This document shows positions 9,862-12,450 of a DNA stretch of 64,000 nt, in pieces (position 1 is the first letter of the stretch; each line of letters opens with the position of its first letter). The notes under the pieces are model-generated. The model was not told the origin of the DNA, did no database searches, and worked only from the letters and a program-made list of their open reading frames with translations. The position numbers and the translations under genes were made by a program. The DNA is from Asterella californica (taxonomy: Eukaryota > Streptophyta > Marchantiopsida > Marchantiales > Aytoniaceae), in NCBI GenBank assembly GCA_036924285.1, contig JAYKYS010000004.1, positions 30,474,001 to 30,538,000 of the forward strand, read 5' to 3'.

Positions 9862-11223
9862 TCATCGTGCAAGCTTCCCTGTAAGCTTGTCGGACTCCAT
9901 CAACCACTTGAGCGGCTGGTGATCAGTGATGAGAGTAAAAGGGTTCCCAAACAGATAACATCGGAAATGTGCAACAGCCCACACTGCAGCTAAACACTCC
10001 CCCTCGTATGAACTGTACCTCGCCTCCGCCGAATTGTTGGAGCGACTGACATACGCCACCACAAACTCCTTTTTCTCATCATCATGCTGAGTCAGCACTG
10101 CTCCAAGTCCCAACATACTCCAATCAGTGTGCAGTTGGAAAGGACGTCCCCTAACGGGTCTCCTCAAGATGGGAGCAGATGTCAACCTATCCTTGAGCTC
10201 CACGAAAGCTCGCTCTTGCTCATCTCCCCATTGCCACTCTTGGTCCACCTTCATCAGCTTGGTCAATGGCTTCACAATTGCACTAAATCCTTTCACGTAT
10301 CGACGATAAAAGTTCGCCAAACCAACAAATGCTCGAACTCGACTCACATCTGTGGGGCGTGGAATACGTGCAATGGCCTCGACCTTCGTTTGTTGAACAC
10401 CCAACCCGCCTGGGTAGATGGTGTGACCCAAATTCTCTACCAACTCCTGGAAGAACTTACATTTCCCAGGATGTAACTTCAATCCATGAGCTCTCAACCG
10501 CTCGAACACATCTCGCAAGTGTCTCTCGTGCTCCTCCACTGTACCACTATAGACCAAGATGTCGTCAATATAGCATCTGACAAAATCCAATCCTGCTAGG
10601 ATCCTATCCATCACTCTTTGGAATTCAGCAGAGGCGTTCTTCAACCCAAATGGTAAGAACCGCCATTGATACAAACAATCCTTGCCGTGAGAGTCAATCC
10701 CCCAGAATGCTGTCTTGGGCTTATCTTCTTCTCTCACTGGCAACTGATGATACCCTGCTCGAAGATCCAAAGTACTGAAGACCTTCACATGCCCCACTGC
10801 ATCAAAGATCTCCTTAGGTGTCGGCATGGCATACTTATCGGACTTTGTCTGTCGATTGATAGGACGATAGTCTCCACACATGCGCCTATCCGTGTAGTTG
10901 CCATACATATCCTTCTTTGCTGGCATAACTGTGGCAGATGCATACTCTCCATGCGACATCTCCACCAACCCAGCTTCCACCAAGTCTTGAGTCCTACTCT
11001 AGATCAAGGTTCTCTCCATGTCACTGTACCTGTAAGGACGTCGAAAGATTGGCGTGTCATTAGCCAAGTCGATCCGTATACCTGGTCCCTTCAAGGTACC
11101 CAAATCCTTCATACTAAAGGCAAAACAATTCCTGTAGCTCTTCAGGAATCTCTGAACTCTTTGTCTCTCCTCTTCTATAAGCTTGGGTCCAATCTCTGGC
11201 TCCCAAGTATCCTCTGTCACCAT
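9862..11223 (-). pseudogene. Reverse transcriptase and RNase H of element H
   Basis: Two open stretches (9862-10983 and 10999-11223) in one frame, separated by TAG at 10999-11001. RT motifs: RMCGDYRPIN, FSTLDLRAGYHQ, LPFGLKNASAEFQ, catalytic YIDD in RCYIDDILVYS (about 10555-10585), then LGHTI and the thumb. RNase H follows with LHTDWSMLGLGAVL (D) , SSYEGECLAAVWA (E) and LITDHQPLKWL (D). The frame stops at TGA 9862-9864, where relatives have Trp in LARWAL. All catalytic residues of RT are retained. YIDD differs from FLDD of elements A and B, so H is a separate Ty3 lineage. Confidence 0.88.
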
Positions 11224-11253: not shown

Positions 11254-12450
11254 CTATCTTGCAGCCTCTGGAGCAGTTTCCTTCTGCTCACCATCAACAA
11301 TCTTCCCCGCTACTGTGCGAAAAACTTCTGCAGTTCTAGCTGCAAGCTCCACACTCTCTCCTACGACATCCCATGATGTCCAAGGATGACGAACTCCACG
11401 TGCCTTGCCCCCAGCCTTTGCCTCCACCAACCCTGTAGGCAAAGAGCTCAAGAGTGTCTGAGCAGTAACACCCGTCAATTGCATACGACGCTGCTCAGCC
11501 AATCCAAGACTAACAATCCATGTCAAGCAGTTCAAGTCCATTGCTTGACCCAACACTTGACGACGTGAAGCCTCTGACACCGAAGCTACTGCAGTCGTAC
11601 CCGTAGGAAAACCCATCGCTCTCTCTCTCTCGTCGGCATTGGGCTCCACCAACTGTTGTAACCGAGCATCCCACACAAGCCCAGGTCCTCCATCTCTGTA
11701 AGCATGTGACGCTGGAAAGCTCACCAAAGTGGGTAACGCTGCCATAGGTTGTCTCACTAGGTTCACAACTGCCATGGGTGATCTATCGACGACTCTCACT
11801 ACTTGAGATCGTCGTCCTGCATCCAAGATGCCATCCACTGTGAGGTGCGTTGGTCGTCTCACTACATCGTGTGCGCGCTTGAGCACCTCTCTTGGTAACA
11901 AGTTCGTCCACCACAACCGTGGACGATGTGCACGAGATCCCACTCTCGCTGCATCTAACAACACTGCCGGTCCGACCCAAGACCGCACTTGGTGCACACT
12001 CGTCATCATATGTGCACGAGCATCACCCAACAAAGGAACGTTCTCCAAGATGTACGCTGGAGAATCCACCTCATGCATCTGGAGATGTCGTAAGATTCGT
12101 AACATCTCCCAGAACATCCTAGATCGCGGATCATGTAAACCCTGACCTCTCCCAGCACGCGTGTGACCTTGACATGGCCACCCGGCTATCACCAAGTGAA
12201 TGGTGCCAACAAACGTGAGATCCTACGCCCCCAGCAGCGAAATATCTGACGGTAATGCTTGCTGGTATCCTCTAACAGCTGATATAGGCAACAACTCAGG
12301 ATATCTCTGCACCAAACGCGCCACATGACGCAATGAGACACGTCTTGCGACCTCATCTCTCTCCACATACAAGTATCGATGTACTTGTATGCCTGCCTGC
12401 AATACCGCAGCCAAACCTGTGCTGATCCCTCCAAACAGCTCCAGCACACA
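11254..12450 (-). pseudogene. Cytosine-5 DNA methyltransferase domain of element H, DNMT3-like
   Basis: The domain starts in the preceding open stretch, with motif I (VLELFGGISTGLAAVLQAG, about 12390-12450) and GIQVHRYLYVE. After TAG at 12223-12225 it continues in the same frame. Motif IV follows with the catalytic PCQ (AGWPCQGHTRAGRGQG, about 12150-12185), then motif VI ENV (AYILENVP), motif VIII (RVGSRAHRPRLWWTN), and motifs IX-X (ERERAMGFP; RRQVLGQAMDLN). Motif order is canonical, not permuted as in DRM. The A-H-R-x-R-x-x-W-x-N block and the motif I neighbourhood look most like DNMT3. It would transfer methyl from S-adenosylmethionine to cytosine C5. The catalytic Cys survives; one stop between motifs I and IV, probably CAG to TAG, inactivates this copy. 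It lies between protease and RT, inside the polyprotein. Confidence 0.88.

Follow-up and report, generated by a model that had tools for sequence, protein, structure and literature searches.

A Ty3/Gypsy-type retrotransposon encoding a DNMT3-type C5-methyltransferase between its protease and reverse transcriptase (RT) was identified in a 64-kb stretch of Asterella californica DNA (contig JAYKYS010000004.1, positions 30474001-30538000; the whole stretch is referred to as the window). It is a single element of 9,724 bp at 17197-7474, delimited by reading its ends and flanks; all coordinates are positions within the window and the element reads on the minus strand throughout. The window copy is broken, yet its DNA methyltransferase (DNMT) domain is no chance insertion. 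A pattern drawn from the DNMT end, with the stop codon left open, matched 745 places in the genome (516.7 Mb searched, 773 contigs) and 0 in a reversed control. In a search with PF00145, 123 of 1250 candidate places were scored, which makes its count a lower bound; a few of the 123 were host genes (the DNMT3 gene L001 and the DRMs L002, L050 and L051), and 16 had frames that stay open over 1,360 amino acids or more. The broken state of the window copy would suit a host methyltransferase gene fallen by chance into one retrotransposon copy, a case that a preliminary description of this DNA had considered, but this explanation is already refuted by copy number and conservation: besides the 745 places and the 16 long open frames, elements of Marchantia, Calypogeia and Sphagnum have homologues at this position, and the enzymes form a clade apart from the host DNMT3b gene.

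Twenty copies, selected for long frames, were fetched. The first open reading frame (ORF1) was open in 16 of the 20 and the second (ORF2) also in 10 of those 16 (over the 835-836 codons covered), so intact reading frames, which the preliminary description had proposed to look for, exist. Of 15 copies measured, 6 had no difference between the terminal repeats A1 and A2, indicating recent insertion. That description also took the element for a Ty3 retrotransposon encoding a DNMT3-like enzyme and likened it to those known from charophyte algae. Both points held; the published charophyte case is that of Klebsormidium nitens (de Mendoza et al., 2018; PMC5890265). The question why a transposon would carry an enzyme normally used to silence it has hitherto been raised for dinoflagellates and a single charophyte. 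A DNMT-bearing retroelement is now found in a liverwort, where its copies number in the hundreds and in some of them the terminal repeats are identical; this extends the green-alga case to land plants, and since relatives with 70-77% identity occur in elements of the genetic model Marchantia polymorpha, the question becomes testable in the laboratory.

The methyltransferase domain and its reading frame

The DNMT motifs were read in the order I (VLELFGGI, 12447-12424), IV (GWPCQ, 12183-12169), VI (LENV, 12048-12037), VIII (SRAHRPR, 11937-11917), ERAMGF (11625-11608) and X (GQAMD, 11550-11536), lying, as first reported, between the protease active site LLDSGA (13182-13165) and the RT motif YIDDI (10572-10558). 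The domain with its C-terminal tail spans 12447-11257, up to the end of ORF1, and was assigned by profile, motifs, tree and the fold of a relative. PF00145 matched the window piece 12222-11257 with an E-value of 4.4e-9 (36.7 bits, cut-off 22), giving the C5-methyltransferase profile match that the preliminary description had proposed to look for, and scored 39.4 and 40.3 bits in two other copies. The sequence alignment to this profile was partial (positions 62-119 of 324), and a fold match made on a predicted structure covers nearly the whole domain; the structure is that of the Calypogeia relative P0002, not the window copy, with a mean predicted local distance difference test score (pLDDT) of 69.2 and mostly 84-96 in the DNMT part. 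The DNMT3 group was nearest by sequence, by the fold of this relative and in the tree, and the best match is not DNMT2-type. DRM identity was ruled out by the canonical motif order, as the host DRMs L002, L050 and L051 have a rearranged order with VI-X before I-IV. L050 and L051, which lie about 31 kb apart in opposite orientation on C526, are near-identical DRM-type genes.

GWPCQ, LENV and GQAMD were present in 16 of the 16 copies with an open ORF1, motif I showed a single variant (VVELFGGI in one copy), and the motif VIII pattern was matched in all but one. The median ratio of nonsynonymous to synonymous substitution rates (dN/dS) of the DNMT among these 16 copies, chosen for their open ORF1, was 0.165 (range 0.05-0.335; 56 pairs with dS > 0.05), compared to 0.17 for gag (42 pairs), 0.27 for the protease region (45 pairs) and 0.114 for RT-RNase H (106 pairs) at the same dS threshold. 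On these estimates the DNMT is under purifying selection on par with gag, and judged from its sequence the domain is almost certainly a genuine, selected DNMT3-type enzyme. The 50-amino-acid tail behind it showed no measurable constraint by dN/dS among the 16 open copies.

ORF1 encodes gag, zinc knuckles, protease and DNMT, and ORF2, in the same frame, encodes RT, RNase H, integrase and a PHD finger. The preliminary description had taken 15372-8128 as one frame, with the DNMT inside a single pol frame. All the motifs that it named are there, but the DNMT of the window copy is broken by a premature TAG (12225-12223) that is missing from the 16 copies with an open ORF1; together with the TAG at the end of ORF1 (11256-11254) and the stops at 11001, 9864, 9789, 9393 and 8202 in the RT-integrase-PHD part, it means that 15372-8128 is not a single open frame, and the DNMT ends ORF1 ahead of a leaky-type stop. 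The TAG at 11256-11254, between DNMT and RT, is not damage, because, of the 18 fetched copies in which the DNMT frame extends this far, 17 keep TAG-CAGTCA and one has TAA (CAGTCA is found in 18/18), and TAG stands in 96 of the 100 listed places among the 745, the others being TAA (2) and AAG (2); CAGTCA is part of the 745-place pattern itself, so its constancy there is built in. TAG-CAG-TCA (11256-11248) fits UAG-CAR-YYA, described in PMC3542737 as the type I readthrough motif of tobamoviruses. The Marchantia proteins P0001 and P0003 likewise end shortly past the DNMT, so this end of ORF1 is probably shared with Marchantia elements.

The first piece of ORF1, from gag through zinc knuckles and protease to DNMT motif I, lies at 15144-12226. 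The gag profile PF03732 reached only an E-value of 0.052 in the window, under the cut-off, and the protease active site was identified by inspection and by comparison with homologous relatives that have PF13650/PF13975. In ORF2, RT and RNase H lie at 10998-9865 (PF00078, E 1e-30; PF17917; PF17919), and the integrase, with its H2C2 and DDE core, at 9390-8203 (PF17921, E 6e-17; PF00665, E 9e-14), reaching a broken PHD finger. The order RT-RNase H-integrase and an RT nearest to Ty3 (E 1.1e-65) place the element in Ty3/Gypsy (Metaviridae-like). The C-terminal PHD finger (8268-8131) is interrupted in the window copy by a stop at 8202-8200; the intact 48-amino-acid form of another copy matched PHD fingers in the PDB (E 1e-15), and this end was complete in 3 of the 6 longer downstream stretches. 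ORF2 ends in this finger, and no Chromo family was detected at E-values up to 0.1 in 9390-8203, which sets the element apart from chromoviruses.

Relatives and origin of the enzyme

Relatives of the DNMT share 65-77% identity in Marchantia and Calypogeia elements and 53-61% in Sphagnum elements. The zygnematophyte Closterium sp. NIES-53 has a relative with the order protease-DNMT-RT (P0193, 35%), and environmental contigs show two architectures, one with the DNMT before RT (P0187, P0188, P0045) and one with the order RT-RNase H-DNMT-integrase-PHD (P0192; P0191, with an additional Tudor domain). Read from these orders, the DNMT has changed place within the polyprotein during the history of the family. 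The DNMT was seen between RNase H and integrase, mostly with a PHD finger, in P0190, P0191, P0192, P0052, P0056, P0062 and P0063, and 18 viral-contig loci (L052-L069) encode distant relatives of the retrotransposon DNMTs with 24-44% identity over part of their length. No K. nitens protein was among the named matches to the element DNMT.

The 33 retrotransposon DNMTs compared all fell in one clade (100/100*), lying outside that of plant DNMT3 (100/98*); the enzyme of the liverwort element was therefore not taken from a liverwort DNMT3 gene of the sampled kind. Support for this clade as sister to plant DNMT3 was 92/78, without an asterisk. The bryophyte members formed a clade of their own (100/99*), in agreement with the distinct lineage suggested earlier. 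The host DNMT3b gene (L001) is multi-exon, and its joined catalytic part has 70% identity to Marchantia paleacea, 66% to MpDNMT3b and 61% to Riccia fluitans; it grouped beside Marchantia proteins (99/87* in the smaller tree, 99/79 in the larger) and the retrotransposon clade did not join it. With Marchantia and Riccia nearest to it, this one gene points to a host that is most likely a marchantiopsid liverwort of neither genus, not an alga. The type II DNMTs formed one clade in the smaller tree (99/80*), and with more rows one of the nine (P0057) fell outside. The RT tree (13 rows) split type I from type II elements (79/97) and holds too few DNMT-less references to test a single acquisition.

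Termini, replication and the role of the enzyme

Instead of plain long terminal repeats (LTRs), the element has split repeats, with A1 at the left and B1-GC-A2-B2 at the right. A target duplication, AAGG, was read directly on both sides (17201-17198 and 7473-7470). A1 (17197-16915) starts with TGTCACG, measures 283 bp compared to 294 bp in the commoner subfamily, and differs from A2 at 8 of 283 positions. A 12-nt self-primer binding site, ACTTGAAGAACT (16915-16904), which overlaps the end of A1 by its first base, complements AGTTCTTCAAGT inside A. At the right end a polypurine tract, CCAGTTAGGGGGGCGA (7971-7956), is followed by B1 (107 bp, 7955-7849), which with GC and the start of A2 forms the palindrome GACAGCTGTC, then by A2 (7846-7564) and by B2 (7563-7474), which ends in GCGCACGACA and has 90 bp here compared to 107 bp in most copies. 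An alternative pair of LTRs of about 1.05 kb, 7375-6324 and 16318-15292, was rejected, as young copies show A and B as the terminal repeats. The segment 7375-6324, directly beside the right end of the element, is 88% identical to the leader and gag start at 16318-15292 and was taken as part of another copy. Upstream of the element, from 17863 downward on the minus strand, lies another A repeat, accompanied by a primer site of its own that matches it.

Among the fetched copies with any B, 16 of 17 have B1-A2-B2, as does the window copy, and one has B1 only; B was absent from 3 of the 20 downstream stretches (L030, L034, L041). Copies end in TGTC...GACA, and the 4-bp target duplication was perfect in 15 of 17 (chance 1e-34), with a single mismatch among the four letters in each of the other two. 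The 12-nt complement of the segment within A stands directly after A1 in 18 of the 19 fetched copies in which A was found, and primer and site covary in three versions, TTTGAG/CTCAAA, TTCGAG/CTCGAA and TTCAAG/CTTGAA, the third of which is that of the upstream A repeat in the window. Such a covarying pair is as expected of Tf1-type self-priming. Priming by tRNA was set aside once the self-complement had been found, and no tRNA search was made.

A polypurine tract before B1 and a self-primer after A1 should together yield a cDNA with B-A repeats, and a circle made by joining its ends, when cut at the junction of B and A, would give exactly A1...B1-A2-B2. The joint of A2 and B2 was exact in 11 of the 15 resolved copies (that of L035 was left out), carried one extra A in two and filler of 12 and 23 nt in two, and the joint of B1 and A2 was GC in 16 of 16. 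The circle route has long been held a dead end for elements with an integrase. The sequences suggest that here the circle probably is what is integrated. Together, the split repeats and the filler seen at a single junction turn integration from a DNA circle into a concrete prediction that can be checked. The repeats could instead be rearranged LTRs, faithfully copied from a founder that had gained B at its right end, with no circle involved. The near-universal arrangement among copies with a 3' end (16/17) would suit such a founder, but a copied junction would not vary by 1, 12 and 23 nt in 4 of 15 copies while the other joint stays invariant, and the polypurine tract sits before B1, not before A2; we regard this origin as doubtful.

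We propose, with the balance leaning slightly in favour, that a self-priming Ty3/Gypsy-type element of the green lineage acquired a DNMT3-type enzyme long ago and keeps it, within the following scheme. Termination at the UAG would give Gag-protease-DNMT in bulk, and readthrough a minority of Gag-protease-DNMT-RT-integrase-PHD, so that the enzyme would be packaged at the level of Gag; its place on the Gag side of a readthrough stop predicts a major component of the particle. Reverse transcription would be primed by the RNA itself, through 12 nt of its 5' region, and the two ends of the cDNA with B-A repeats would be joined to close a circle. The packaged DNMT would methylate this cDNA ahead of insertion, most likely at CG, and the integrase, guided by the PHD finger to a state of the histone H3 tail, would open the circle at the palindromic junction of B and A and then insert it. 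The benefit would most likely be that the new DNA resembles that of the host or is shielded from attack, rather than a later escape from silencing. The cDNA is, by a modest preference, the target that we favour, and its methylation by a packaged enzyme has been proposed for dinoflagellate elements (PMC5890265). Only tentatively do we combine all parts into one picture, in which a DDE element integrates from a two-repeat circle opened at GACA-GC-TGTC, a Gag-level DNMT marks that circle before insertion, and both belong to an old green-lineage clade (liverworts, Sphagnum, Closterium and other algae/plants) whose DNMT has moved between two places in the polyprotein.

The enzyme might instead work in trans, with the host genome or sister copies as its target, limiting the element itself or silencing competitors, an option raised by the authors of PMC5890265. 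The mutation footprint bears on this. Among 20 copies including that of the window (20 of 21 rows, L018 being dropped for length), all of this family alone, single-copy transitions per site and copy were 0.0070 at CG, 0.0091 at CHG and 0.0050 at CHH compared to 0.0010 at A:T (p < 1e-18 each), that is, 4.8 to 8.8 times commoner at C:G sites in all three contexts. Decay of this kind is what methylated insertions should show, and it argues against escape from silencing, which the preliminary description had entertained; that idea is not supported, although the footprint is not decisive. The excess would also fit trans action, as would a high copy number with many recent copies if the element is tolerated and self-restrained, but the host's own plant-type enzymes explain CHG and CHH, and a gene that purely lowered transposition should decay in the winning copies, where dN/dS is 0.165. 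We consider trans action unlikely. Methylation of RNA, or a nucleic-acid-binding or structural part in the particle with catalysis secondary, would suit a domain on the Gag side of the stop, and RNA methylation is suggested in PMC5890265 for the DNMT of a dinoflagellate LINE; with the catalytic Cys and Glu motifs kept in 16/16 open copies and a best match that is DNMT3-type, not DNMT2-type, such a role seems quite improbable.

Several observations weigh against the proposed packaging, methylation and circle scheme. It is built on sequence; readthrough, in particular, is suggested by the motif alone, and the copies used for dN/dS had been selected. Constraint was stronger on RT-RNase H than on the DNMT, and Gypsy elements without a DNMT are present beside this one (RT ORF at 47243-45375), so the DNMT is not needed for transposition. 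One copy (L023, with L045) has A1...B1 and a perfect CCTC target duplication with no A2-B2, which may reflect a one-repeat circle or later recombination between B1 and B2. The closest published case, KnitGypsy-Dnmt3 of K. nitens, gave no methylation in yeast, a result that its authors call inconclusive (PMC5890265).

Elsewhere in the window, 47243-43644 (minus strand) holds a further Gypsy-type element, whose two ORFs encode RT, RNase H and integrase and gave no match to a DNMT, and 4877-2505 (minus strand) a 790-amino-acid ORF with a weak match to DUF4100 (E 1.3e-6).

Comparison with known systems

DIRS/Ngaro/PAT-type elements have split direct repeats, A1...B1-A2-B2, and a circular intermediate. 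The element described here has the same split repeats but combines them with a DDE (rve) integrase and target duplications, and no tyrosine recombinase was found in it. Compared to vertebrate DNMT3A/3B and plant DNMT3 (MpDNMT3a/b), the enzyme has the same catalytic-domain fold and motif order but is without a PWWP/ADD or DUF3444 partner, and the element DNMTs stand outside the plant clade on a long stem (1.57 and 1.91 changes per column). Self-priming by the 5' region of the RNA is predicted for Tf1/Sushi and plant Tcn1, which are described in PMC6317226 as chromoviruses with plain LTRs and a chromodomain; the prediction is shared here, where the 12-nt complement stands right after the left repeat and the RNA is assumed to start there, whereas the PHD finger and the split repeats set this element apart. 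The words 'methyltransferase', 'PHD' and 'Marchantia' do not occur in that survey.

DNMT3s in retrotransposons are stated in PMC12344493 to include 'LTR Copia and DIRS' of streptophytes and dinoflagellates, and no published description of a bryophyte Gypsy element with a DNMT was found in a literature search covering sources outside subscription journals. SymbioDIRS-Dnmt3 and SymbioLINE-Dnmt of Symbiodinium are likewise retroelements carrying a cytosine methyltransferase, and the SymbioDIRS enzymes methylate CG in yeast (PMC5890265); these elements, however, use a DIRS tyrosine recombinase or, as LINEs, no integrase, in contrast to the DDE integrase and 4-bp target duplications found here. KnitGypsy-Dnmt3, as described in the same paper, is a Gypsy-type element with a DNMT3-type domain under purifying selection (Ka/Ks < 0.2). 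The two share Gypsy-type domains, an unrearranged DNMT3-type domain, purifying selection and a DIRS-like repeat arrangement (noted for KnitGypsy-Dnmt3 in a legend). They differ in that the DNMT lies in the Pol polyprotein ORF of KnitGypsy-Dnmt3 but ends the gag-protease ORF here, before a leaky-type stop, in the PHD finger found here ('PHD' does not occur in the main text of PMC5890265), and in the liverwort host with at least 745 places. By its architecture, compared to the published description, the Asterella element is of the KnitGypsy-Dnmt3 kind, in a variant layout.
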